Origin: Chloroflexota bacterium
Lineage (GTDB): Bacteria > Chloroflexota > UBA11872 > VXNJ01
Direction of reading: 5' to 3'
Assembly: GCA_009840625.1 (NCBI GenBank)
Contig: VXNJ01000010.1
Coordinates: 1 to 64,000 of the forward strand
DNA: 64,000 nt
The position numbers and the translations under genes were made by a program. The notes beneath the pieces are model-generated. The model was not told where the DNA came from. It saw nothing but the letters and a program-made list of their open reading frames with translations, and ran no database searches. Below, piece by piece: positions 27,993 to 44,315 of the stretch; the stretch's first letter is position 1; every line of letters starts with the position of its first letter.

Positions 27993-28907
27993 TTGAACGA
28001 CTTCGTCATTCGCACGGACGGGCTGACCAAGCGGTACGGTGAGATCCTGGCCGTCGACGGACTTTCGATGGAGGTCCCGCGCGGGCGCATCTTCGGTCTG
28101 TTGGGCCCGAACGGATCCGGCAAGACCACGACGATGGGGATGCTGCTGGGGCTGGTCAAGCCCACCGCGGGCAGCTTCACATTGTTCGGATCTAACTCCC
28201 CGCACGTCGAATCCTTGCGGCGCCTGGGGGCGATTGTCGAGACACCGGCCTTCTATCCCTACCTGTCCGGACGCGACAACCTGGCCTACTTCCAGGGGAT
28301 CGGGGGAAGATCGGATGCGGCCGAGCTGGACGACCTGCTGGAGAAGGTTGGCTTGTCCGACCGTGCCGACAGCCGTTTCCGGACCTATTCATTGGGAATG
28401 AAGCAGCGGCTGGGCCTGGCCTATGCCCTGCTGGGCGATCCCGAACTGCTTTTCCTAGACGAACCCACCAACGGTATGGACCCGGCCGGCATGGCCGAGG
28501 TCCGCGATCTGATAAGGAGCCTGGGGACCGGGGGACGTACGGTATTGCTCTCCAGTCATCTGCTGCACGAGGTGGAGCAGGTCTGCGACAGCGTCGCCAT
28601 TCTTTCCAAGGGCAAGTTAATAGCCCAGGGCAACGTCGATGACCTGGTGCGCCCCGGCGGCGACGAGCGGGTAAGGCTCAGGACTACCGACAACGCCAGG
28701 GCGGTCGAAGTCTTGGAGGGCCTGGACTGGGTGACGAGCGTGGAAGATGACGGTGATTCGCTGCTGGTTGCAGCGGTCAGTGACAGGTCGCCGGAAATCA
28801 GCACTGCGCTGGGACAGGCAGAGGTTTACGTCACCGAGATGGCGGCCGAGGAGACGTCCTTGGAGCAGTACTTCCTGGATGTCACCGAGGAAGAGCGGGA
28901 GAGCTGA
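27993..28907 (+). CDS. ABC transporter ATP-binding protein
   Basis: An ATPase subunit of 304 residues partnering the preceding permease. Walker A is GPNGSGKTT, the Q-loop region is IVETPAFYPYLSG, the ABC signature is YSLGMKQRLGLA, and Walker B is LLFLDEPTNG followed by the H-loop SSHLLHE. A C-terminal extension of about 80 residues is typical of NatA/BcrA-like exporters. It starts with TTG 14 bp after the permease stop. A strong intrinsic terminator follows the stop codon, so the operon has two genes. Confidence 0.93.
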   Translation: MNDFVIRTDGLTKRYGEILAVDGLSMEVPRGRIFGLLGPNGSGKTTTMGMLLGLVKPTAGSFTLFGSNSPHVESLRRLGAIVETPAFYPYLSGRDNLAYFQGIGGRSDAAELDDLLEKVGLSDRADSRFRTYSLGMKQRLGLAYALLGDPELLFLDEPTNGMDPAGMAEVRDLIRSLGTGGRTVLLSSHLLHEVEQVCDSVAILSKGKLIAQGNVDDLVRPGGDERVRLRTTDNARAVEVLEGLDWVTSVEDDGDSLLVAAVSDRSPEISTALGQAEVYVTEMAAEETSLEQYFLDVTEEERES

Positions 28908-28921
28908 CGGGCGACGAATTC

Positions 28922-28957
28922 AAGCGCTGATTTGAATTCGCCAACGAGCGCTTTTTT
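28922..28957 (+). terminator. Rho-independent terminator after the ABC operon
   Basis: AAGCGCT (28922-28928) pairs with AGCGCTT (28947-28953), and the T-run 28952-28957 follows. A second inverted repeat, GAATTCAA (28916-28923) and TTGAATTC (28932-28939), overlaps it, so two alternative hairpins are possible. It lies 15 bp after the ABC ATPase stop codon. Confidence 0.7.
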
Positions 28958-29187
28958 GATCGAATGACCGACTAGCGATTAGGAATTGGCGTCGATTCCG
29001 AGCGGCTTTTGCTAGCGGCCGAAGAGCATTAGAGATAAACGTGATTATGTTTTTCCGAATCCCGTGTGCAGGTGACTTTTACGATTGAACTGAACAAAGG
29101 AAATCCGAATGGTCGGGCTGCCCGCGTAGTCTTCGTAGATGGGGCCACATCACTTCAAATTGCGGTTTGACACCTCGGTTGAAGCAC

Positions 29188-31425
29188 TCAATCCATATCA
29201 AGTTGTATCGGCAATTCAATCACCGGAATCAAAGGCGCTAGTCGAGCTTCGTATTGCCGGACAACCTCGTTATACAAGTCGTCGGCCCTCGGAACATTAA
29301 TGGTCAAAACTAGCGCATACCGGATTTTTCTCGCGGAGGATGTGCTGCCGCCTTTTGATCGAGCAACGTAGTGGATGTCGAACACCGGTTCTTTCAAGCT
29401 AGAAAGTCTTTTTCTTTTGCGGCGATGCAGCGTCGTTTCCCACTTGTGTGCATCCCTTCGGAGTTGATGCTCATTCGCGTACAGCCCACCAGGTCGAAAG
29501 AAAGATTCCGATTTTGGGTGAAGTGAATCATCCCGCGCGAACTTGTACCGATGGGGTCTAAACACAACCGAGAGTCCGCTCTTGGTGTAACTGCCTGGGT
29601 GTTCCGGGTCGATTTGCGTCGCAAAGCAAAAAGTGGCGGTTATTTCTGCAAACCCAGGAGCGTCAATTTCAGGTAGCGGGATGTGGACTCGTTTGTATTT
29701 GGCTGCGCTAATTACGTCTTGATAGACAATGCGCACGCCGTTGTCGGGACATATGACCATTTCGTCTAACGTGTCCGGCAGTTTGCCCCAACCAATTTCC
29801 GACCTCTCAAATGTCCCGGGTTGAGTGCAATGAATCAGTAGCGCCTTTATGGCCAAAGGACTTAGAACAGCGCCAAAGTGCGTCCGCACCGCAATGGCCG
29901 ACCGCATGGTAAGAGGCGACGCAAAGCTCGTACCTTGCAAAGCGGACGCCTTCCCTGGATTCAAGCTGTCTACTGCCCAGAATGGCTCCATGTCGCTCCC
30001 CCCGAACGCAATCAGGTCGGGTTTCACAATCCCGGGTGACCTTCCTGGGCCAATCGAACTGTACGCCGCTCTCTCCCAGCCGTCTCGTGTCGATTTGTTA
30101 CTCGCACCAACAGTGATTCCATTTACACAATCTGATGGAACTTGGACTCGCCACGGCTTAAGCGCATTGAATGAAGGCTCGTCCCCTGTGTTCCCAGCAG
30201 CGATGGCCATGAATGACCTTCCATCGGACAAGTGTTCGTCCAGTACGGCCGTCCAAGCGTGAACTTCGTTGTCGTCAATCGGCAATTCAGGTCCGATGCT
30301 CAAGTTGACGTATTCGTGGCCCCCCTGGCCCAACACAGATTCGACGCGCTTTAGTACTTCATACAGCTCATACGGATCGTTTTCAGATTCCTTGTCGAGC
30401 ACCCGGAAGTGGTCTACGCGGCAAAGTGGCGAATCAGGAGTAGCAGATGCGATTGAGCCAAACAACAACGCAGACGTAACTCGTTCGCCGTGTGCCAAAT
30501 ACTCGATTCCGGGTTCCCCCACACCAGGTACGTCACGAACATTCGCCCACCGATTTAGGGGGCTGTCGGAAGGCATCCCTCCGTCCAAGATTGCCACCCG
30601 AATCCCAGGATCCACTGCGGGCTTTATAGGAAGTTCGATTCGTTTAGGTTCGTAGACAACTGAAAGCGTTTTCTGCCCCACACGCAGCCTTGGCATCTCG
30701 CGCAATACCCGCAGGAATGAGAAACGCGCCACTTCTTGAGCTTCTGAGGGATTCGCGTGAATTCGGAGGAAGCACAAATTTCCAGCAAAAAACACGTTTT
30801 CGAAATCCCATTCCAAGCCCAACTCTTGGAGGTAAAACTTTAGGCCGGCCAAAATAAATCGGTCGCGCTCGTGCTCGCTGGCGTGCAGCACAACCTCAAG
30901 CAATAAACGATCAGGTTCGCTTGGTAATTGGCGGAGTCGGGACTCCGCGTCAACAGCCGCAATTGTTTCGAGTTTTGTTAAATGCCTGGCTGCAGGATGA
31001 ATTCTTGACCAATTTGGAATGCTCAGCGACAACGACCTAAACGCTGACCTTTTGCCAGCGACAAACAATTCGGTCGATACATCGGAATCACGTGCGGATT
31101 TGCGTGTCTGTTTCTCCGGTGAGACTGAGACTGACCGGCTCCCAATCGTTCGCAACCCCAGCCTTTCCAGGGCTCCTGCCGGTGAGTACGACTTTGCCAG
31201 GTATTCGGGGTGAAGCACGATTGAAGCAACCGACTCACCGCTCGGGCATACGCTTGCAGGCAACCGATCCAATGAGTTCGCAGTGTTGGCCAACATTGCC
31301 GATACACGTTGCTTCGCTTCGGCAAATTCATATGGAGGTTTCTTGGGCCCACCGCCTTCTTTGACTTCAATTTGTTCGGTGAGAGTTTCGCCATATCCAA
31401 GCAAATAATTCCGCCGGCTGGCCAT
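29188..31425 (-). CDS. ietS: S8 subtilisin-like serine protease, IetS-like
   Basis: A large subtilase, 745 residues from the ATG at 31425 (11 more if the ATG at 31458 is used). The catalytic triad is intact: Asp in RVAILDGGMP, His in AHGERV and Ser in GTSFASP, with the oxyanion Asn in AIAAGNTGDE. An N-terminal region of about 270 residues precedes the protease domain and a beta-rich region of about 220 residues follows. There is no signal peptide, so it acts in the cytoplasm. The ATPase gene lies directly upstream, with stop TAA and start ATG one base apart. An AAA ATPase plus S8 protease is the make-up of IetAS, known from plasmid incompatibility and later reported as a phage-defence system. 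Confidence 0.85.
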   Translation of the reverse strand: MASRRNYLLGYGETLTEQIEVKEGGGPKKPPYEFAEAKQRVSAMLANTANSLDRLPASVCPSGESVASIVLHPEYLAKSYSPAGALERLGLRTIGSRSVSVSPEKQTRKSARDSDVSTELFVAGKRSAFRSLSLSIPNWSRIHPAARHLTKLETIAAVDAESRLRQLPSEPDRLLLEVVLHASEHERDRFILAGLKFYLQELGLEWDFENVFFAGNLCFLRIHANPSEAQEVARFSFLRVLREMPRLRVGQKTLSVVYEPKRIELPIKPAVDPGIRVAILDGGMPSDSPLNRWANVRDVPGVGEPGIEYLAHGERVTSALLFGSIASATPDSPLCRVDHFRVLDKESENDPYELYEVLKRVESVLGQGGHEYVNLSIGPELPIDDNEVHAWTAVLDEHLSDGRSFMAIAAGNTGDEPSFNALKPWRVQVPSDCVNGITVGASNKSTRDGWERAAYSSIGPGRSPGIVKPDLIAFGGSDMEPFWAVDSLNPGKASALQGTSFASPLTMRSAIAVRTHFGAVLSPLAIKALLIHCTQPGTFERSEIGWGKLPDTLDEMVICPDNGVRIVYQDVISAAKYKRVHIPLPEIDAPGFAEITATFCFATQIDPEHPGSYTKSGLSVVFRPHRYKFARDDSLHPKSESFFRPGGLYANEHQLRRDAHKWETTLHRRKRKRLSSLKEPVFDIHYVARSKGGSTSSARKIRYALVLTINVPRADDLYNEVVRQYEARLAPLIPVIELPIQLDMD

Positions 31426-31426
31426 G

Positions 31427-32587
31427 TTATCTGCCGCTGACCGACTGTTCGTGGACATATTTGCGAATGGTGTCTCGACTTACACCGGTGGTTCTACTTG
31501 CCTCCCGTTGCGACATTAGCCCTTCAGACACAATTGCGATTGCGAGATTGCGGCGCATATTCGTGGGAGCAGATCTCGCGATTTGACTCAGGATTTCGAC
31601 AGACCCGACTTCAATGCTGCAATCCTCGATTGCGGTATATCGTCGCACTCTATCCACGACGTGGCGAACTTGGCTCAACGATTCGCCATCCAAGGCATGC
31701 GCGAACAATTCGGGCCAAGGATCCGATTTTTTAAACTTCATCTGATTTCTGACGTAAGACCCAATCAACTCTCTTTCTGGAAGCGGAAACTCAACAATGA
31801 GTTCGAATCTACGCCAAACTGCAGGGTCTAACAATTTCGAGTGATTGGTCGCCGCTAACAACAGGCCCCGTGCGGGCCACTCATCGATTTCCTGAAGTAA
31901 AACTGTAACTAGTCTTTTCAGCTCCCCAATTTCCCCCACGTCATCGCGCCGCTTAGCAACAGCGTCAAGCTCGTCCAGCAAAAGAACACACTCCCGGCTT
32001 CTAGCGAAATCCAGGACCGCACGTAGGTTATTGCCGGTTCGCCCAAGAAACGAACTCATCACAGCCGACAAATCAAGAATCGCGAGTGGCCGCTTAAGTT
32101 CACGGGCTACCCACTTCGCTGCTAGCGTCTTGCCAACTCCCGGCGGACCGATGAACAATGCGGTCCTCGTAGGGTCAATCCCCGATTCCGCAAGTGCGCT
32201 TGCACTGATCCTCTCGCGCACGATTTGATTCAAAAGTCCCCACACGCGCGATACGTATATGGGTTCTATTTCCAGAGTTGGAGTTTCCAAGACTCGAATC
32301 AACGGTAATCGCGAATTGCCATCAAGTGGAATACCGGAAGATTCGATTTGACGCGTCGAATCTCCTTTAACCGGCGCATTCCTCAGGAGCGCCATCAATC
32401 GATCCGCAAATTCGGGATTCGTTGAACGGCATTCCCTGGCCAAATTTCGCAATTGCAATACCAAGTCTCGCTTCTTCCCCTTCAACGCGATTTGCGACAA
32501 GTGGAATAATCGTTCTTGCCATTCCTCCGTATCGTCCACACCTATGTGACTGTCGGAATTTCCTTGAGAACCTTCCATCCGTCGCAC
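31427..32587 (-). CDS. ietA: AAA+ ATPase, IetA-like, with C-terminal helix-turn-helix
   Basis: An AAA+ ATPase of 386 residues (GTG start at 32587; an ATG nine bases later is possible). Walker A is GPPGVGKT (147-154), Walker B is CVLLLDELDA (200-209), sensor-1 Asn is in AATNHS and the arginine finger in WRRFE. A helical N-terminal domain of about 130 residues precedes the ATPase core. The C-terminal tail SQREASRTTGVSRDTIRKYV has the spacing of a DNA-binding helix-turn-helix. It is followed immediately by the subtilase gene. In the IetAS model the ATPase senses or delivers targets to the protease; the HTH tail suggests DNA or operator contact here, which is inference. Confidence 0.85.
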   Translation of the reverse strand: MRRMEGSQGNSDSHIGVDDTEEWQERLFHLSQIALKGKKRDLVLQLRNLARECRSTNPEFADRLMALLRNAPVKGDSTRQIESSGIPLDGNSRLPLIRVLETPTLEIEPIYVSRVWGLLNQIVRERISASALAESGIDPTRTALFIGPPGVGKTLAAKWVARELKRPLAILDLSAVMSSFLGRTGNNLRAVLDFARSRECVLLLDELDAVAKRRDDVGEIGELKRLVTVLLQEIDEWPARGLLLAATNHSKLLDPAVWRRFELIVEFPLPERELIGSYVRNQMKFKKSDPWPELFAHALDGESLSQVRHVVDRVRRYTAIEDCSIEVGSVEILSQIARSAPTNMRRNLAIAIVSEGLMSQREASRTTGVSRDTIRKYVHEQSVSGR

Positions 32588-33062
32588 CTGGACTACAATC
32601 AGCCATCCCTTAACATTTTAGTCCACTACGACAGATTTTCCTTTACTTGGTACAGGGTACTTTTTTGCCAATCGATCGAAATTCGCTTGCCGCCAATCAC
32701 TATCAACTATTCGATCAATAACGCATCAGCACGTTTGCATTTGCCGATTCGACCTCGGCATTCAGAATGCCATTCGCGAGCCAAAATCTACTCAATTACC
32801 GACAGTGCTCGCCGTGCCCGAATCACAAGAATTCAATGCCGTAGCGCCAATTGGCAGCACGGGCTCGCTTGGCTAGCAACGATAGCCAAATCTGTGCTGT
32901 TTCGACCGGCACACGAACGCCCAATTGAGATCAATTCGCAACCAAACTTTCCGAGGCCAGAATCTCCCGATCTTTCGCATGCACTGGACGAGTGGCACGA
33001 TGATGGTTGTGCTAGTCGTGCTATACTCGGCGAGCACAACTATCACTTGAAAGGCCTACATC
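32588..33062. other. AT-rich divergent intergenic region
   Basis: About 475 bp between the ietA-like gene and the divergent two-gene cassette. It is noticeably AT-richer than the rest of the window. Apart from the inverted repeat at 33006-33040 and the TATACT element inside it, I see no gene or repeat. Confidence 0.5.
33006..33040 (+). promoter_or_regulatory. Inverted-repeat operator candidate spanning a -10 box
   Basis: GTTGTGCT (33006-33013) and AGCACAAC (33033-33040) are perfect 8-bp inverted arms around 19 bases that include TATACT (33022-33027), a near-consensus -10 element. The cassette's start codon is at 33063. The arrangement suits binding of a regulator, possibly autoregulation by one cassette product. 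No good -35 is visible. Confidence 0.5.
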
Positions 33063-33536
33063 ATGCCTGAACCGGATGAACACCGCGCCAAAATTTCTCT
33101 AAAAGTCGGTGATGTCAGCTTCGAAGGGGAAGGGGGCCAATCCTGGCTCGACCAGCAAGTAGCGTCATTAATCGACGCAATTGGTTCCGGGAGAATCCGC
33201 AGCAACAATCCAATCGCTCCTGAATCTTCCAACGAACCGAAAGCGGCCGACCAATTTACCGAGTCGCTTGCAAGTTATTTGAGGTCAAAGGGAGGCGATT
33301 CGGTCCAGATTCAACGGTTTTTGGCTACTGCCGCATGGTTGAGCAAACGTGGCCAATCGACGCTGACAACTCGAGACGTCAGTCACGCTTTAAGAGAAAA
33401 CCAACAAAAACGATTGGGAAATGCGGCAGATAGTCTCAACAAAAACGTTTCAAAGGGGTTCTGCGAAAAATCGTCAAATGGATTTTTCATCACCCCGGAC
33501 GGTTGGGCGCACCTAGGTGAGCGCCAACCCCAGTGA
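33063..33536 (+). CDS. Small conserved protein of a two-gene cassette (KVGDVSFEGEG family)
   Basis: A soluble protein of 157 residues. The N-terminal segment KISLKVGDVSFEGEGG, followed by WLDQQVASLIDA, is a pattern I recall from small uncharacterised bacterial proteins encoded next to the type of protein that follows here. The C-terminal half (residues 70-150) looks like a helical, winged-helix-like domain. There is no signal peptide or membrane segment. The stop codon overlaps the GTG start of the next gene (GTGA), so the two are coupled. A possible operator lies upstream. I infer an antitoxin, adaptor or sensor role beside the HEPN-like partner; no function is established from sequence. Confidence 0.7.
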   Translation: MPEPDEHRAKISLKVGDVSFEGEGGQSWLDQQVASLIDAIGSGRIRSNNPIAPESSNEPKAADQFTESLASYLRSKGGDSVQIQRFLATAAWLSKRGQSTLTTRDVSHALRENQQKRLGNAADSLNKNVSKGFCEKSSNGFFITPDGWAHLGERQPQ

Positions 33537-34285
33537 TTCAACACACCGCTTTAGGTGCCCTGCCCGACAACCTTCGCAATCCGCTCATCGCCGAATACCG
33601 ACGAATCAATCAATCTTTCCTCGAACGCAGATGGTTGCCATCGGAGCTCAGCGGTGGAAGGTTCTGTGAAATCGTATACACGATTCTTGAAGGCTATGCT
33701 TAAGGCGAGTTCCCGGCCGAGCTTTCCAAGCCCCGGAACTTTGTTCGTGCTTGCCGTCAACTGGAGCAGCACGAGTGCATTCCAAGGTCTTTGCGTATCT
33801 TATTGCCCAGAATTCTTCCCGCTCTTTACGAGGTGCGCAACAATCGAGGAGTCGGCCATATCGGCGGTGATGTAGATCCCAATCACATGGATGCGGCATT
33901 TGTCGTGGCTACGAGCAGTTGGGTGTTAGGGGAATTGATCCGCGTTTTCCACCAAATTGAAATTCACGAGGCCCAATCTATCGTCGACAACCTAGTTCAA
34001 CCTCGAGTACCGTTGGTCTGGGAAGGACCACACTCGCGGCGTGTTCTTAATCCGAATTTGAGCGTTCAATCCCAGGTACTCGTGTTGCTAGCCACTACCC
34101 CCAATCCAGTAAGCACTGCCGAATTGCAGCAGTGGGTCGAATGTCGGAACACTGCATACTTCAAATCCATATTGCGCAAATTGCACAGAAATCGAATGAT
34201 TGAACTCTACCCGGATGGGAAAACCGCCGAGTTATTGCCTCCCGGATATTCCGAAGCTTCCGGAGAATTACATTCGAAGACTTAA
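33533..34285 (+). pseudogene. HEPN-like second gene of the cassette, interrupted by an in-frame TAA
   Basis: A 250-residue frame opens with a GTG overlapping the upstream stop and is interrupted only by TAA at 33701-33703 (codon 57). Before it the protein reads LPDNLRNPLIAEY and GGRFCEIVYTILEGYA; after it, in the same frame, GEFPAELSKPRNFVRACRQL and onward. Intact relatives, as I recall them, have Lys at this spot, so AAA to TAA is the simplest explanation. The later part holds YEVRNNRGVGHIGGD, an R-x6-H pattern reminiscent of HEPN and abortive-infection C-terminal domains, then a winged-helix-like C terminus (VLVLLATTPNPVSTAELQQW). A restart at TTG 33791 could still make a 164-residue fragment with the motif. 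HEPN assignment is tentative. Confidence 0.75.
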
Positions 34286-34740
34286 ACGTTAGGAATTAAT
34301 CTCCGCTTCGCAGTTAGAAGCATTTTTTCGCCCGCCTATCGACCATCCGAGTGCATATTGCCGTGCCGTTGTGCAAAGTGCGTCGGGCGCATTCGCCGCT
34401 GGTCGTGTCTCGTCTTCGTGATGGAAGCCACGTACATGACGCATTGCTGCTCAGTGAACCTGAATTGCCGAATACCGCTCGGTTGTCGCGTTTTGCGCGA
34501 TTCGACAAGATATAAACTGCATTATGTCTAGCTGCCCGCGATTCCGCGGCGAGCCCCTTCACGCGTCGGTGAATTGCTCAAATTGGCAGCGCGAGACGAG
34601 ATTAGCGACCATGAATGGCTCGCAATCACCCGGGCGACAGCGGCCGATTAGCCTCCGGAAAGACGGCTATGAATCAAATTCCTCGCTCTTGCTGGACGTA
34701 CCGAGGCGAGATCGATCCATTTGCCAATTCGAGCGAGTTC
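34286..34740. other. Intergenic region at the right edge of the AT-rich island
   Basis: About 455 bp between convergent genes. A plus-strand frame of about 70 codons ends with LSRFARFDKI before TAA near 34515, but has no recognised family or clear start. ATAAAC...ATTATGT at 34512-34527 resembles 29035-29050 at the other edge of the island. Otherwise nothing is supported. Confidence 0.4.
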
Positions 34741-36402
34741 TTATCCCCGCTGCCTGATATCTCGTCGCTGAAACAGGAATATCGACAGGCCAAAGAGCGC
34801 CGCGGACAACACGGTTAATACGAGGGCATCCCCCCAATCCATCCCGGTATTCAAAGGGTCGCTGACCAGGTAGTAGTGGAAGGGTGACAGCCACGCAATA
34901 CCGGCAAGGCCGTCGTTGATCTTTACCAGCGACGTCAATAGATGTGAGACGAGAGCTGCGCCCACAGCTCCATAGATGGCAGCCGACGCACGTCCCGTGC
35001 CGGCGCCAATTGCTAGGGCGAGGAAGCCGAATACCAGGCCTGACAACACTTGGAGTGCAGCGGTCGAGCCGATGTTGACAAAAGACATCCCGAGGTCACC
35101 GAACACCGACCCCAAGGACACGCCGGCGAACGTCGCGATACCGACTGCGATCCCAAAAAGCGTCATGGTCGCGGATTTCTCGATCACGATTCTGGAACGG
35201 CGAATGGGATTGGCCAGCAACAGCCCCATCGTGCGTCGCGACTCCTCGCCAGCGAGGGCTCCGGCGCCCGTGACAGCCGTCACCAGGATGACGGCAAGTG
35301 GGGCCATCAAGCCAAATGTTTCCAGCGTGTACCAACCTTCCGGAGTGCCCAGTTCGCCGCCCCCAAAGAGCGCGATTAACTCCTCGGGGAAATTGTGGAA
35401 CGCAACGCGCGTCTCCTCCGTCAACGATGCGTACATTGGCCCCAATATGACGCCCATGACTAGAAACATGGCAGCCGATGTGACCAGAAGCAGGGTCTGG
35501 TAATCGGAGACGGTCTTCAGCCATATAGACGACACCCTGGCCGAACCGGCAAGTCGCCCAACGATCCGGTTGAGGATCGGATTGCTCCGCATTCTGTCCA
35601 GTAGCGAGGTCCCAACGGATTGGCTTTTGAGGTCACGGCGGCCGAACCCGACCATGGCGGCGACCAAGAGCACGACGGACGCTGAAGCCAGAACTGCCAG
35701 GTGGTCCCACGCGATGCCGTTGTAGATCGGGTCACTCCCATCAAAGTAGTACCAAGGGAATGCTTTGCGCAGGTTCTCCAGCCCCTCGACAAGGGGCAAG
35801 AGCCCGACTGCAAAGAAGGAAATCACAAGGATCCCAGCGGCCACGCCCGATGCCGTGTCGCGATTGCCGGTTATGGCGCCGATGGCCAGAGCCAGCATTC
35901 CGTAATAGACGGCGTTGACGTAAAGGTGTAGCGCCAGGGCTTCCACTTCCAGGCCGCTGATTTCAACATCCATCAAGGCGGCCGCCGGGTAGACCGAAGC
36001 CCACAGGATGGCAACAGTGAGGGCGGCCAGCACGACGAGGGAAGCGGCTTTGGACAAAAGGACGTGCGTGCGACTCTTGGGATTTGCGAGCAGGATGTTC
36101 ATAGTCCCGTTCCGCTCTTCCCCAGCAATCGCTGCGCTACCGAAAACGAGCGCCATTGCGGCCGTCACGAATGCCCCGAAGGAACCAAGAATGTAGCCGA
36201 CCGCCAAGCCCCCGGCGTCAACGCCCTCCCCGATGCCGAACAAGGAGCGAAACGCCTCGGGCAATTCGGTGTAAATCGTGAGGTCGATTTCCCTATAGGC
36301 TGCCATCCCGAACAAAAGCAGCAGCGCGAGACTAACGGCCGAGATGACCCACCCGAGCCAGCGATCGCGCGCCGTTTTGAGGGTTATGTTCGCCAGCGTC
36401 AT
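34741..36402 (-). CDS. Double-length ABC-2 type exporter permease
   Basis: A 553-residue membrane protein with about 12 hydrophobic helices, built from two ABC-2 permease modules. Each half has the same coupling-loop motif: GEERNGTMNILLANPKSRTH around residue 95 and GEESRRTMGLLLANPIRRSR around residue 390. This shows an internal duplication, so one polypeptide can supply both transmembrane halves of the exporter. Its start overlaps the ATPase gene by four bases (36399-36402). With the ATPase and a MarR regulator it makes a three-gene operon typical of drug or toxic-compound efflux. Confidence 0.9.
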   Translation of the reverse strand: MTLANITLKTARDRWLGWVISAVSLALLLLFGMAAYREIDLTIYTELPEAFRSLFGIGEGVDAGGLAVGYILGSFGAFVTAAMALVFGSAAIAGEERNGTMNILLANPKSRTHVLLSKAASLVVLAALTVAILWASVYPAAALMDVEISGLEVEALALHLYVNAVYYGMLALAIGAITGNRDTASGVAAGILVISFFAVGLLPLVEGLENLRKAFPWYYFDGSDPIYNGIAWDHLAVLASASVVLLVAAMVGFGRRDLKSQSVGTSLLDRMRSNPILNRIVGRLAGSARVSSIWLKTVSDYQTLLLVTSAAMFLVMGVILGPMYASLTEETRVAFHNFPEELIALFGGGELGTPEGWYTLETFGLMAPLAVILVTAVTGAGALAGEESRRTMGLLLANPIRRSRIVIEKSATMTLFGIAVGIATFAGVSLGSVFGDLGMSFVNIGSTAALQVLSGLVFGFLALAIGAGTGRASAAIYGAVGAALVSHLLTSLVKINDGLAGIAWLSPFHYYLVSDPLNTGMDWGDALVLTVLSAALFGLSIFLFQRRDIRQRG

Positions 36403-39923: not shown

Positions 39924-42900
39924 GTGATTCGTCCCCTGGCCTTGATCCTGGCGGCGGTGCTGGGCTTCAGCGGCGCGGCGCCGACCGCAGACGCGGCGAT
40001 CGTGGCGCCGCAATCGTCGCCCGCATCGGACCGGGCGGTTCTTGCCGAATTATTCGAAGCCGCCGGCGGATCGGGATGGCTCAATTCCGACAACTGGAAC
40101 AGCCCGGCCCCGCTGGATCAGTGGTACGGCCTCACCACTGATGAAGCCGGCAGGGTCACCGCAATCGCTCTGGCTTCCAACCGCCTGCGGGGGCAAATCA
40201 CGCCCGCGATCGATCAACTTCAAGGCCTCGAAGCGCTAGACCTGAGCAACAACCTGCTCCGCGGCGCGGTCCCCCTCGGACTCGGGCGGCTCCCGGCGAT
40301 CAGAACGATAAGTCTGGCCAACAACCGTTTCAGCGGTTCGATTCCGGCCGCCCTGGGCGCAGCTCCGCGACTGCAAATCCTTGACCTCTCCGGCAACCAG
40401 CTGGTCGCCGGCATCCCGGACCAGTTTTATGAGCTGAGCTCGCTCGAGCGACTCGATTTGAGCGGCAACCGACTGATCGACCGCGTCCGCCGGGAATTGG
40501 CCAACTTTTCGCGCCTGACCCACCTGGACTTGAGTCAAAACGGGTTCCATGGTCCGATTCCGGCCTCGCTCGGAACCCTGCAAAACCTCGAACGGCTGTT
40601 GATGGCGGAAAACTCGCTGTCCGGTGAAATCCCGGCCGGATTGTTCGGCATCGCAGATCTGGCGGAACTTGACCTTTCCGGCAACCGACTGAATGGACGC
40701 CTCCGAATCCCCGGCGGACCGCCCACGCGCCTGCAGCGGCTAGATCTTTCGGGCAACATCATCACCGGCCCGGTGCCGAGCGCGATCGCCAGGTTTGACG
40801 GTCTGCAGCACCTTGATCTTTCCAGCAACGTATTCAGGGGCCCGATTCCTGCGGGACTCGGCGACATGGCCGATCTGCGGGTCCTGCGGGTCGGCGGCAA
40901 TCGGTTTTCGGGCTCGCTGCCGCGGCGGCTCGGCCAGCTGGAGAACTTGACCGAGCTCTGGGCCGGCGGCAACCAGCTGACCGGCCAAATACCGGATCTC
41001 TCGGCGCTCGCGACCCTTTCGCACCTGGATTTGGGCGGCAACTCCCTCTCCGGCCCGATACCCGCCTGGCTGGCGGAGCTTTCATCACTTGAAGTGCTCG
41101 ACCTGAGCTCGAATTCGCTTACCGGGCCGCCGCCGAAGGAAATGGCCGAATTGAGCCGCGTAGTCCGGCTGGCGCTGGGAGGAAATCCGCTGACCGGCGC
41201 GATACCCGGCTGGCTCGGAGAGCTCGAGTCCCTCCAGGACCTGGACCTTGCAAACGCGAACCTGACCGCCCCGATCCCGGGCGGATTGCGATCGCTGGCG
41301 AACCTGCGGTGGGTCGATCTGGGCGGAAACCAACTGACCGGCCAGATTCCGCCGTGGTTCGGAGACTTCTCCGGACTGCAGTACCTGCGCCTGAGCGACA
41401 ACGCGCTCTCGGGGCCGATCCCGCCGAATCTTTTCTCGGTCGCTCAACTACAGGTGCTCGAGCTCGACAACAACGCTTTCAGCGGAACGATCCCGGACCG
41501 ATTCGGCGGCTTACCGGCGCTCACCCGTCTGCGGCTCAACGACAACCAGTTGAGCGGACCGATCCCGGATTCGCTGGGCAGATCATCGCGGATCAGATCG
41601 CTGCATCTGGACGGTAACCGACTGAGTGGGGAGTTGCCAGGCTGGCTGCCGGACCTGGACGCGCTTTCCGACCTGCGTCTCGGCCGCAACCGGCTCAGCG
41701 GCGAAATCCCGGACGACATCGGTCGCCTGCAATCCCTGCTCGAGCTCGGGATCGAGCGGAATCTCCTCGCCGGGCCGGTGCCCGAGTCGATCGGTTCCAT
41801 TCCTGGGCTGCTCAGTCTCGACCTGTCCGGCAACCAGCTCGAGGGCCAGATCCCGCCGTCGCTGGCGTCGCTGGCCGAACTAGAGCATCTAGACCTGAGC
41901 AACAACCGGCTTGGCGGCTCCATCCCGGCCGCGCTTGGCAATCTTGGCCGCATGCGCTGGCTAAACCTCGCCCACAACCGGCTTGAAGGATTGATCCCGG
42001 AGGAGATTGCCCAGTTGTCGCGATTGCGCGAACTGTTCCTGGAAGGGAACGGCTTCGAGGGCTGCGCCCCTAACGAGATTCGCCGCCTCCGCTCCACGAT
42101 CGACCTGCTGGAATTCGGCGGCAGACCGTTCTGCGACCTGGCCCTGAGCCTGATAAGTGTTTCGCCCGGACAAATCCGACCCGAATTCGATTCAGCCCGC
42201 CACGATTACGTCGTAGACGTTCCCGCCCCCGAGAGTTCGCGACACGTTTCGCTAAGGCTCTTCGCATACCAAGAATTGCAAGCGGTCGCGTTTCTTGACG
42301 CAAACGGTCGGATCCTTGCCGACGCCGACAGCCAGACCGGCGGCTTTCAGCTGGATATTGCCGAATTGACCGCCGATGACCTCCCGCCGCTGATGTCGGT
42401 GGAGGTGATCTCGGGGGACCTGAAATACCGCTACAGTCTGCGGTTCTCGCCCGCCCGGGCCGGGGAAGCGGGGTTGTACGCGGTGCTGGTCGATGGCCGC
42501 CCGATATTCGCCGGCATCGAGGCGGGAGAGTTTTCGCATAGGGTCGGTTTCGAACGCGGGCGGGTGCGAGTCGAACCGCTGGCGCTTGATCCCGGGGCGA
42601 CCGTGAACATCTCCCCGCCCGATGCCGATCAGGTCGCCGAAAACGGCCACCAGGTCGACCTGGCGGTCGGTGCGAACAGCATCCTGATCGAGGTGACCCC
42701 GGCCGACGGTCAAAACGGGCGCGGATTCGAGCTGGCCCTGGAGCGCCTGGCCCCGGACCGTGACATCCTGATCCGGCTCTATGAAACCACCGGCGGCCCC
42801 GCATGGTCCCGAAGCGAGGGATGGCTGTCCGAAGATCCACTCGGCGATTGGCACGGGGTCAACACCGACAACGCCGGTCGCGTCGTCGAGCTCGAGTTGG

Positions 42901-44315
42901 GCGACAACGGGTTGAGCGGCCCGTTGCCGGCCGCGATCGCCGACCTTGTCCGGTTGCGGAATCTCGACCTCAGAAAAAACCGCCTGAGCGGCGAGATCCC
43001 GTCCGCCTTCGGCCAGTTGAGCGAGCTGGTGATCCTGGAACTGAGCGGCAACCGGCTTTCCGGACCCCTGCCGGACCAGGTGGCCCAATTGCCCAAACTT
43101 CTGCTGCTCTCGCTTGACGAGAACGAACTGTCCGGTCCGCTCCCGACCTCCTTCGGCAACGCCGCTGAGCTGATCGGGTTGGGGCTGGCCGGCAACGAGT
43201 TCACCGGGCCCGTCCCCGAGTCGTTCGGGAATCTGCCGGCCCTGGGGACATTGCGCCTCGCCGGCAACCGATTGGGGGGCTGTCTGCCGGCAACGCTCCG
43301 CGCCGACGTATTGCAGTACCACGATTTCGCCCGGCTCGGGCTTTCTTTCTGCGACGTCGGAATCCGTGCGCTGCCGCTGAACCTCGGCCGATTGCTGCCC
43401 GCTTTTTCGCCGGGCGACACCCGCTACCGGCTATTCGTGGAAATAGGCGACGTCTCCGCGCAACTCTCGCTGGCGCCGGAACTATTCAATGAAAGCTCCG
43501 AAGTCAGCTACCTGGGCCCGGATCTTGTCCCGCTGGTGGACGCCGATCCCCGGTCCGACGGGTTTCAGATCAATCTGTCGCGGCTGCCGCCGGACGGGGA
43601 ACCCTTAGAACTGAGCATCCGGGTTTCAAACCCGGCCTCCGAGCAGACATACAGTTTTGCGATCGAACTCGCCAAACCGGGCGAGGTTGGCCTGGAGGCG
43701 ATCGGGGTCGCCGGGCAGTTTTCCAACTATTCCATCGGTTCGAGTTACCTGCGCCGCCTGGTCAATCACCAGTCCGAACGCATCACCATTGAGCCCCGAA
43801 CGATCGACCCGGCGGCGGTTTTCGAATTCCTGGCGCCGCCGGTCGGCTCAGGCGGGCCCCTCCCGCTGCCCGATGCCGACGGCGAACCGGGCAACGGTTT
43901 CCAGTTCGATACCGCCTCGGGCCCGAACATTCTGCTGCTGCGGGTGCAGTCGGCCGATTCAAGCAGGGTTCGCATCTACGCGCTGGTGATCGTGCGCACC
44001 CCGGGCAAGCCCTCGCCGCCCGCAATAGCCGCGGTCGCGCGGAGCCCCGCTCGAACGGAGATTTACTGGTCTCCGCCGGACATTACCGGAGGAAGTCAAA
44101 TCACTGGCTACGACCTGCGCTACATATATGCCGGGACCCCAGAGAAATCCGACCGATACTGGACGATGATCGGCCGCCTGGATCCCGTCGCCGGCCTCAA
44201 TCTGGTTCTTGACGGTCTCGAGGACGATCTTTCGTACGAATTTCAGATTCGGGCCCGCAATCGCGCCGGCGCCGGCCCTTGGTCAGACGCGTTCGCGGTG
44301 GCGCCGGCGGCCTGA
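39924..44315 (+). CDS. Giant secreted leucine-rich-repeat protein with cadherin-like and FN3 domains
   Basis: A 1463-residue protein. Residues 1-24 are a Sec signal peptide (cleavage likely after TADA). A cap (FEAAGGSGWLNSDNWNSPA) leads into about 27 plant-type 24-residue LRRs (LxLxxNxLxGxIPxxL) to about residue 730, closed by a paired-Cys cap. Two cadherin-like beta-sandwich units follow. Then the same module repeats: cap (YETTGGPAWSRSEGW), six LRRs, Cys cap, two beta-sandwich units, and a final fibronectin type III domain from about residue 1360. There is no C-terminal membrane anchor or sortase motif, so it is probably released or held non-covalently. It starts with GTG and is a single gene. 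Likely roles are adhesion, or recognition of hosts, other cells or polysaccharides. Confidence 0.9.
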   Translation: MIRPLALILAAVLGFSGAAPTADAAIVAPQSSPASDRAVLAELFEAAGGSGWLNSDNWNSPAPLDQWYGLTTDEAGRVTAIALASNRLRGQITPAIDQLQGLEALDLSNNLLRGAVPLGLGRLPAIRTISLANNRFSGSIPAALGAAPRLQILDLSGNQLVAGIPDQFYELSSLERLDLSGNRLIDRVRRELANFSRLTHLDLSQNGFHGPIPASLGTLQNLERLLMAENSLSGEIPAGLFGIADLAELDLSGNRLNGRLRIPGGPPTRLQRLDLSGNIITGPVPSAIARFDGLQHLDLSSNVFRGPIPAGLGDMADLRVLRVGGNRFSGSLPRRLGQLENLTELWAGGNQLTGQIPDLSALATLSHLDLGGNSLSGPIPAWLAELSSLEVLDLSSNSLTGPPPKEMAELSRVVRLALGGNPLTGAIPGWLGELESLQDLDLANANLTAPIPGGLRSLANLRWVDLGGNQLTGQIPPWFGDFSGLQYLRLSDNALSGPIPPNLFSVAQLQVLELDNNAFSGTIPDRFGGLPALTRLRLNDNQLSGPIPDSLGRSSRIRSLHLDGNRLSGELPGWLPDLDALSDLRLGRNRLSGEIPDDIGRLQSLLELGIERNLLAGPVPESIGSIPGLLSLDLSGNQLEGQIPPSLASLAELEHLDLSNNRLGGSIPAALGNLGRMRWLNLAHNRLEGLIPEEIAQLSRLRELFLEGNGFEGCAPNEIRRLRSTIDLLEFGGRPFCDLALSLISVSPGQIRPEFDSARHDYVVDVPAPESSRHVSLRLFAYQELQAVAFLDANGRILADADSQTGGFQLDIAELTADDLPPLMSVEVISGDLKYRYSLRFSPARAGEAGLYAVLVDGRPIFAGIEAGEFSHRVGFERGRVRVEPLALDPGATVNISPPDADQVAENGHQVDLAVGANSILIEVTPADGQNGRGFELALERLAPDRDILIRLYETTGGPAWSRSEGWLSEDPLGDWHGVNTDNAGRVVELELGDNGLSGPLPAAIADLVRLRNLDLRKNRLSGEIPSAFGQLSELVILELSGNRLSGPLPDQVAQLPKLLLLSLDENELSGPLPTSFGNAAELIGLGLAGNEFTGPVPESFGNLPALGTLRLAGNRLGGCLPATLRADVLQYHDFARLGLSFCDVGIRALPLNLGRLLPAFSPGDTRYRLFVEIGDVSAQLSLAPELFNESSEVSYLGPDLVPLVDADPRSDGFQINLSRLPPDGEPLELSIRVSNPASEQTYSFAIELAKPGEVGLEAIGVAGQFSNYSIGSSYLRRLVNHQSERITIEPRTIDPAAVFEFLAPPVGSGGPLPLPDADGEPGNGFQFDTASGPNILLLRVQSADSSRVRIYALVIVRTPGKPSPPAIAAVARSPARTEIYWSPPDITGGSQITGYDLRYIYAGTPEKSDRYWTMIGRLDPVAGLNLVLDGLEDDLSYEFQIRARNRAGAGPWSDAFAVAPAA

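Follow-up and report, generated by a model that had tools for sequence, protein, structure and literature searches.

In the available text of two reports on described relatives of IetAS, a protease is the toxin and an ATPase its antidote: the protease of the SGI1 pair sgiT/sgiA is toxic alone and neutralised by the ATPase (PMC5006074), and in Mycoplasma the protease toxin T133 is neutralised by the ATPase antitoxin A132 (PMC8562856). As for IetAS itself, the accessible parts of a 2025 Pf phage paper link the IetAS of PfAC08 statistically to phage resistance and call the mechanism unknown (PMC11878078). Here we describe an IetAS pair, ietA (AAA+ ATPase) and ietS (S8 subtilase), from contig VXNJ01000010.1 of a Chloroflexota bacterium (GCA_009840625.1), whose first 64,000 nucleotides (the window) were analysed. 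The IetAS family is already known; the new part is a code that relates a helix-turn-helix (HTH) in IetA to an inverted repeat before its gene, and in the literature within reach of our search, which covered few subscription papers and preprints, we found no description of an IetAS HTH or operator. We consider it rather probable, judging from sequence, that the locus is a type II-like toxin-antitoxin or defence operon whose AAA+ antitoxin, IetA, is its own sequence-specific regulator.

Family membership and architecture of the pair

The original prediction, made without database searches, had read a coupled AAA+ ATPase and S8 protease of IetAS design from the sequence, and two minus-strand open reading frames (ORFs), 31427-32587 (386 aa) and 29188-31458 (756 aa), are indeed found at that position. 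PADLOC profiles, the S8-domain tree and gene order all bear out the match to IetAS. The PADLOC check that the prediction had proposed recovers both proteins over nearly their full lengths, IetA (PDLC02196) at E 1e-77 over residues 27-381 and IetS (PDLC02197) at E 1.7e-42 over residues 33-738 of the listed ORF. Since the NCBIfam IteA and IteS equivalog models (NF042959, NF042956) give 215.7 and 106.5 bits, far below their curated cut-offs of 510 and 900, the pair is not an NCBI IteAS equivalog. Among PHROGs, IetA falls to phrog_3757 (313 bits) and IetS to phrog_3964 (462.5 bits), both labelled as of unknown function.

A genome scan confirmed 318 relatives, of which 80 among the matches listed were analysed; the 79-row sets used below leave out L059 and L113, whose contigs carry no ietA. 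The tree of S8 domains has 52 rows and 274 columns, with a program warning of long branches, and was built without the near-identical viral loci L004-L006 and L010-L012 and without L026, which has an insertion sequence inside. Here, the window IetS groups with three 56%-identical relatives from two Phycisphaerales and one gammaproteobacterial metagenome-assembled genomes (support 100/99), and these four sit in a 41-row IetS clade (98/85), to which the founder IetS of pTiC58 and the named IteS form a weakly supported sister group (85/47). The IetS rows are set apart from four S8 proteases of other kinds with support 96/96; a fifth intended outgroup (L136) fell inside IetS and, having an IetA homologue upstream, is an IetAS itself, and four more gave no usable ORF and are absent from the tree. 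With ietA directly upstream of ietS in 78/78 testable genome loci (two contigs end before ietA), what was found is the reverse of a pair outside IetAS in a different context, the outcome which the prediction had named as telling against it. By sequence, the window pair is thus an intact IetAS member in a broad divergent clade, far from the founder and from IteAS.

Over 103 paired loci from all sources, near-identical viral ones counted, the gap between the genes is at most 30 bp in 102 and they overlap in 59; the sole exception is L026, where the insertion sequence splits the pair. Distances among the IetA proteins closely follow those among the IetS proteins (matrix correlation r 0.933, at most 0.10 after permutation). 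In the window, the ietS ATG (31425) lies one base past the ietA stop codon, and the two genes are probably translationally coupled with ietA made first. This ATG, rather than the one at 31458, is most likely the ietS start because the annotated starts of 13 aligned relatives, which fall near the equivalent of MASRRNYLLGYGE in IetS, come close to it, and our IetS numbering follows the resulting 745-aa protein (the listed ORF minus 11). Given an AGGTG motif 6 nt upstream, ietA may begin at ATG 32578 instead of GTG 32587. Place and strand of the predicted genes thus stood, the ietS start had to be moved and that of ietA possibly has to be.

Both proteins keep their catalytic residues, as had been claimed. 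IetA has a Walker A motif (GPPGVGKT, 147-154), Walker B Asp205/Glu206, sensor Asn248 and Arg259/Arg260; Gly150, Lys153, Asp205, Glu206, Asn248, Arg259 and Arg260 are each conserved in 79/79 aligned members, and at position 154 Thr occurs in 74 members, with Ser in the other 5. The AlphaFold2 model (predicted local distance difference test, pLDDT, 87.8; predicted template modelling score, pTM, 0.73) comprises an N-terminal helical region, the AAA+ module, which resembles the unfoldases p97 (Cdc48/p97), PAN and FtsH, and three C-terminal helices. In IetS, Asp281, His312, Asn412 and Ser500 are each invariant (79/79 aligned IetS), and in the S8-domain tree set His312 is aligned to Leu in 1 of 47 rows (L132). 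Also in line with the prediction, roughly the first 60 residues of IetS hold no signal-peptide-like stretch (top 15-residue hydropathy mean 0.37). The IetS model (pLDDT 88.4, pTM 0.90), read from its secondary structure, runs from two N-terminal alpha/beta modules through the S8 domain to a C-terminal beta-sandwich. A sequence search of solved structures with IetS gave no match, unlike the fold search, which aligned residues 269-709 with SubHal and KP-43 (Z 26.9) and residues 172-558 with unautoprocessed pro-subtilisin E (Z 24.1); the top Foldseek match is a propeptide-containing Thermococcus subtilase. These matches to propeptide-containing subtilases suggest that IetS is built as a pro-enzyme, and the model suggests a cytoplasmic subtilase with propeptide-like domain, S8 domain and beta-sandwich. 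A PF00082 search of its own genome missed even the window S8 domain, a false negative which says nothing on other subtilases.

Recognition helix and half-site

In the IetA model, the C-terminal helices (342-354, 360-367, 371-385) read as a helix-turn-helix, within which Thr367, Gly368 and Arg375 are found in 79/79 members and Gln360 in 77/79. Pfam HTH models score weakly and pick up fewer than half of the 79 members; model and conservation suggest that IetA carries a conserved C-terminal HTH, putatively DNA-binding. Directly upstream of ietA stands the perfect inverted repeat TGGACTA-N23-TAGTCCA. With the spacer set to N20-28 this pattern has one exact match in the 2.27-Mb genome and the reversed-pattern control has none.

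Repeats of this kind recur before ietA elsewhere. Inverted repeats with arms of 8 occur in 43/98 ietA upstream regions versus 10.1 in shuffles, a set that again leaves out the near-identical viral loci named above. When TGGWnn/nnWCCA pairs were searched openly at 20-50 bp in 103 regions, a spacing of 31 accounted for 33 pairs, 32 for 17 and 34 for 9, with at most 4 for each other value. Under a strict site rule (TGGnnnA and TnnnCCA, 29-32 bp between 7-mer starts, no more than one arm mismatch, -250 to +60 of the assumed start) 58/79 loci have a site, 35 of them perfect, compared with a mean of 0.2 (maximum 2, none perfect) in shuffles and with 14 sites, 1 perfect, elsewhere in the same loci (1.34 Mb). 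By record title, the sites span at least ten phyla: Planctomycetota (6/7), Pseudomonadota (32/50), Bacteroidota (7/7), Actinomycetota (4/6), Acidobacteriota (2/2) and, at 1/1 each, Chlorobiota, Armatimonadota, Nitrospirota, Cyanobacteriota and Bdellovibrionota, plus one unranked locus and the window. Taken together, this suggests that the dyad repeat at the operon start is a specific operator; neither it nor the HTH had been part of the original prediction.

Half-site variants appear to follow the recognition helix. Counting sites with equal bases in both arms (55 of the 58 for position 5, 47 for position 6), position 5 against residue 372 gives C/Asp 36, A/Glu 13, A/Asp 5, A/Asn 1 and C/Glu 0, and position 6 against residue 370 gives T/Ser 17, G/Ala 22, G/Ser 6 and T/Ala 2. 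Later loci from viral contigs, plasmids, phages and other genomes, none of them in the first set, came to 84 distinct ones after 12 identical proteins of 96 were dropped. Sites were found in 27 of these (29 by a looser rule). At position 5, 19 sites pair C with Asp, 3 pair A with Glu and 1 pairs A with Asp, none pairs C with Glu, and in 4 an A goes with Asn, Gly or Pro; at position 6 the counts are T/Ser 7, G/Ala 6, T/Ala 1, G/Ser 1 and A/Ser 1. For position 5, residue 372 ranks top of 305 IetA columns (0.547), followed by 370 (0.356), and the best of 654 IetS columns reaches 0.249; for position 6, residue 370 is top of 302 IetA columns (0.352). Dependent evolution was examined by a Pagel-type test, on a tree from which the HTH columns had been left out and with rows other than Asp/Glu or Ser/Ala dropped. 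Position 5 and residue 372 gave a likelihood ratio (LR) of 38.7 (n=77, p 8e-8), position 6 and residue 370 one of 17.7 (n=60, p 0.0014). Loci with Pro372 form a further class: TGGTA/TACCA at 26-38 bp occurs in 7/16, versus 0.03 in shuffles, and four of these are related phage types with Ser-His-Pro-Thr; the same pair is found in 0/56 loci with Asp, Glu, Ser, Thr or Gln at 372 (12 further loci fell outside scoring). L002 from a kin genome, with a Ser-His-Pro-Thr HTH, has TGGTA/TACCA at 31 bp by the same counting. In sum, half-site variants track residue 372, TGGAC going with Asp, TGGAA with Glu and TGGTA with Pro, albeit with exceptions.

Upstream of ietA on a Xanthomonas plasmid (L030) stands a longer, different palindrome (arms ~12 bp) along with a different recognition helix, which hints that other HTH types may have operators of their own. 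The conserved operator and its residue-to-base code together offer a handle on the family. The code predicts what IetA binds in many relatives and helps to set ietA start sites, it can separate sub-clades that score low on existing profiles, and it makes the question of IetA as regulator plus antitoxin a testable one.

Regulator-antitoxin model and its alternatives

In view of the toxin and antitoxin roles in relatives and of the operator evidence, an antitoxin-autorepressor that is also an AAA+ ATPase is the simplest model. IetS would be the toxin, a cytoplasmic subtilase pro-enzyme, and IetA, made first, the AAA+ antitoxin that in this clade may hold it inactive. Through its C-terminal HTH, IetA would bind TGGACTA-N23-TAGTCCA, whose half-sites lie about three helical turns apart and abut the ietA start; because they are 30-31 bp apart, two HTHs could sit on one face of the DNA, as an oligomer would allow, and two HTHs of one IetA oligomer might thus contact the operator and repress the operon. 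Once IetA is lost, occupied or inactivated, as might happen upon element loss or phage infection, IetS would be freed and transcription would rise, and freed IetS might then arrest or kill the cell through its protease activity on a presumed target.

Several observations weigh against this model. By the strict rule 21/79 loci, the close relative L035 among them, have no site; 8 of these 21 come from one mainly betaproteobacterial group of 13, in which a strict TGGGCGA/TAGCCCA site occurs in 5/13, or 7/13 when L097 and L102 are counted in a widened region. Many loci with other HTH types (most Ser-Arg-Pro-Thr phage types, for instance) show no such repeat, and autoregulation is not general to IetAS because the founder IetA ends before the HTH. 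No sigma-70-like promoter was found near ietA (32300-33200), nor was a terminator-like site in the same interval. As for the code, A stands at position 5 in six Asp372 loci of the pooled set, and independent-pair sign tests of both links, with no contrary pair, had too few pairs for p<0.05. For position 6, one IetS column reaches 0.397, above residue 370, so that this link is not separable from shared ancestry and is suggestive only. When the pairs are crossed in the Pagel-type test, LR is 16.0 for position 5 and residue 370 and 20.4 for position 6 and residue 372, above the 17.7 of position 6 with its proposed partner, hence only the link between position 5 and 372 stands out. Finally, the window repeat is able to form an RNA hairpin, its leader folding better than shuffles (z -3.0).

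That hairpin, with a stem longer than the 7-bp arms, could itself hide the ietA start codon, the repeat then being a leader RNA element rather than a protein operator. We regard this as highly unlikely: spacing that peaks at two neighbouring values in the 20-50 bp search is unneeded for a loop, the half-site type tracks HTH residue 372, and no extended stem is evident by eye in the (unfolded) upstream sequences of L089, L034 and L035. HTH folds can also mediate protein contacts and, with Pfam HTH scores being weak and confined to a minority of members, the HTH of IetA might serve such contacts or oligomerisation while the operator belongs to a host regulator. This we deem even less probable, seeing that the same half-sites accompany ietA in at least ten phyla and occur once in the window's own genome and that the strongest predictor of position 5 is a residue of the IetA recognition helix. 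Least probable of all is that the insert is decaying and the pair in it a degenerate remnant without activity. In favour of this, the neighbouring D2 frame is broken by a stop codon (see table), and in kin genome G004 (L002) an IetA-like ORF is accompanied by no more than a short IetS match with stops in it, so that this IetAS is either decayed or of a different kind; against decay in the window speak two full-length genes, intact catalytic residues and a perfect operator.

An unlikely option, albeit one with more in its favour, reverses the role of the ATPase. Here IetA would be an activator, its AAA+ ring unfolding or delivering substrates or stripping the propeptide-like domain of IetS, so that the pair would form an infection-activated ATP-dependent protease with the operator for expression control only. 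FtsH and the proteasome offer an analogy, the AAA domain of IetA is closest to the unfoldases Cdc48/p97, PAN and FtsH, and the propeptide-like domain of IetS must be displaced by something. The argument on the other side comes from the SGI1 and Mycoplasma relatives in which, going by the available text, the protease is toxic by itself and is neutralised by the ATPase (PMC5006074, PMC8562856). The most speculative extension of the regulator-antitoxin model, which we hold to be quite unlikely, sees IetA as a DNA-sensing AAA+ antitoxin: the operator-bound oligomer would be the safe state, the operator would serve as an identity tag, and operator copies or competing IetA from an incoming plasmid or phage would titrate IetA and free IetS. 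If this were true, the code (Asp-TGGAC, Glu-TGGAA, Pro-TGGTA) would set self/non-self groups, and a single mechanism would underlie both incompatibility and superinfection exclusion.

Genomic setting, spread and described systems

Features of the locus and of four plasmid loci discussed below (window coordinates unless a locus is named)
Feature	Position	Strand	Remarks
ietA, AAA+ ATPase	31427..32587	-	386 aa from GTG; alternative ATG 32578 gives 383 aa
IetA AAA+ domain, residues 144-269	31781..32158	-	Pfam AAA (PF00004), E 5.1e-29
IetA C-terminal putative helix-turn-helix, residues 342-385	31433..31564	-	weak HTH_29/HTH_psq matches; AlphaFold2 helices
IetA residues 370-372 (Ser-Arg-Asp), opening the predicted recognition helix	31472-31480	-	
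ietS, cytoplasmic S8 subtilase	29188..31425	-	745 aa; start chosen from relatives; listed ORF reaches upstream ATG at 31458
IetS S8 catalytic domain, residues 275-547	29785..30603	-	Pfam Peptidase_S8 (PF00082), E 1.6e-14; four residues 79/79
IetS catalytic codons	Asp281 30583-30585; His312 30490-30492; Asn412 30190-30192; Ser500 29926-29928	-	
IetS ferredoxin-like domain (beta-alpha-beta-beta-alpha-beta), residues 172-245, located where a subtilisin has its propeptide	30691..30912	-	AlphaFold2 model
IetS C-terminal beta-sandwich, residues 563-710	29296..29739	-	model; SubHal/KP-43 alignment
Putative operator, perfect inverted repeat	32589..32625		half-sites 32619-32625 and 32589-32595; directly upstream of ietA
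D1, divergent ORF, 157 aa	33063..33536	+	same low-GC segment as the pair
D2, divergent reading frame	33533..34285	+	same segment; in-frame TAA at 33701-33703 interrupts
Multiubiquitin/ThiF loci	L017:8573-10722; L027:1262-3688; L029:1254-3686; L031:10368-12268		

The pair lies inside a segment of ~5.8 kb (28.9-34.7 kb) of low guanine-plus-cytosine (GC) content between two ATP-binding cassette (ABC) transporter operons. GC is 0.491-0.547 in pieces of the segment versus 0.585-0.628 in four flanking ABC transporter genes, and GC at third codon positions is 0.50-0.54 in its ORFs versus 0.72-0.80 in six flanking genes. Ten flanking ORFs were scanned; they encode major facilitator superfamily and ABC transporters, sulfatases, an aminotransferase and a leucine-rich repeat protein, and 8/10 had no PADLOC match. 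The other two encode ABC ATPases and hit defence-system ATPase models (mad3 at best, E 6e-25), which we read as generic ATPase similarity because their ABC-permease partners suggest so; a flanking ABC ATPase has many paralogues. No direct repeats of at least 14 nt were found at the insert edges (28700-35000), where two short internal pairs were all that appeared, and the window has no tRNA genes. Hence, of the island setting that had been thought to fit a defence system, the low-GC segment is present and the local neighbours fit weakly, while some relatives elsewhere adjoin defence and mobile genes. D1 and D2 had no match in PADLOC and PHROGs and nothing above chance in Pfam, and for the longer D2 piece no plasmid or viral relative was found; as D1 and this piece match loci of their own genome only (among 315 loci), we reject the reading of them as a conserved IetAS partner. 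Further along the plus strand, 39924-44315 encodes a 1463-aa protein of mostly leucine-rich repeats with fn3 and cadherin-like matches.

Relatives are widely spread and frequent in viral contigs. The latter yielded 88 IetA relatives of several HTH types (80 among the matches listed) and 63 IetS relatives (L150-L229, L245-L307); the 88 came from a scan with the IetA alignment, the window IetA alone having found 0. IetAS also occurs on plasmids and in phage records, among them those of a Peduoviridae and a Pf phage. In a strict search (E 1e-70) of three sampled groups, each including its seed genome and with few candidates scored per genome, 6/397, 7/395 and 4/392 genomes matched, some with other HTH types. 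Pfam families (top 25) among 141 nearest-neighbour ORFs included ThiF (9), M78 peptidase (7), sigma-70 region 4 (7), RadC (4), integrase (4), resolvase (3) and SMODS (3), and PADLOC families (top 25) included one E1-E2 model (up to 8), RmrA (7), capP (6), PtuA (3) and cyclase (3), all as raw counts without a background rate. Of 19 IetAS loci inspected on plasmids, four, from different genera, have multiubiquitin and ThiF (E1-like) genes nearby, and ThiF also leads the Pfam counts for nearest neighbours in genomes; these genes are possibly functional partners of IetAS.

How does the locus compare with the systems described? SgiAT and Mycoplasma TA132/133 are, by description, likewise pairs of an AAA-ATPase antitoxin and a subtilisin-like toxin, and the passages of these reports on operator, promoter, DNA-binding and autoregulation describe no HTH or operator of the pair (PMC5006074, PMC8562856). 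With the IetAS of Pf phage PfAC08 the window pair shares an IetS 32% identical over 740 aa and a paired IetA, but the HTH there is of another type (His-Ala-Ser) and no TGG operator was found. IteAS (e.g. Acidovorax p1-T1) has the same operon order and, in the alignment, an HTH-like C-terminus, at ~38% (IetA, 211 aa) and ~25% (IetS, 430 aa) identity; on the PADLOC models Acidovorax iteS reaches 979.5 bits and iteA 487.9, whereas the window proteins reach 143.7 and 260.1, and a matching TGG operator was not seen in L020 or L021. In OR818368.1 (L022) the notes are swapped and give IetS for the ATPase, IetA for the peptidase. The founder, IetAS of Agrobacterium pTiC58, likewise has the AAA+ gene directly before the S8 gene, in the same order and strand, and its IetA is 31% identical to that of the window over 269 aa. 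Unlike the window pair, however, founder IetA is 328 aa long, stopping short of the HTH region, founder IetS gives no significant BLASTP match to the window IetS (E 0.09) and has its best PADLOC match (85.6 bits) to another IetS model, and no TGG-type repeat was found in the 200 bp before ietA. In type II antitoxin autorepressors such as HigA, the DNA-binding domain of the antitoxin binds before its own operon. Our proposal resembles these in principle and departs from them in that the putative repressor is an AAA+ ATPase with a C-terminal HTH and half-sites about three turns apart.

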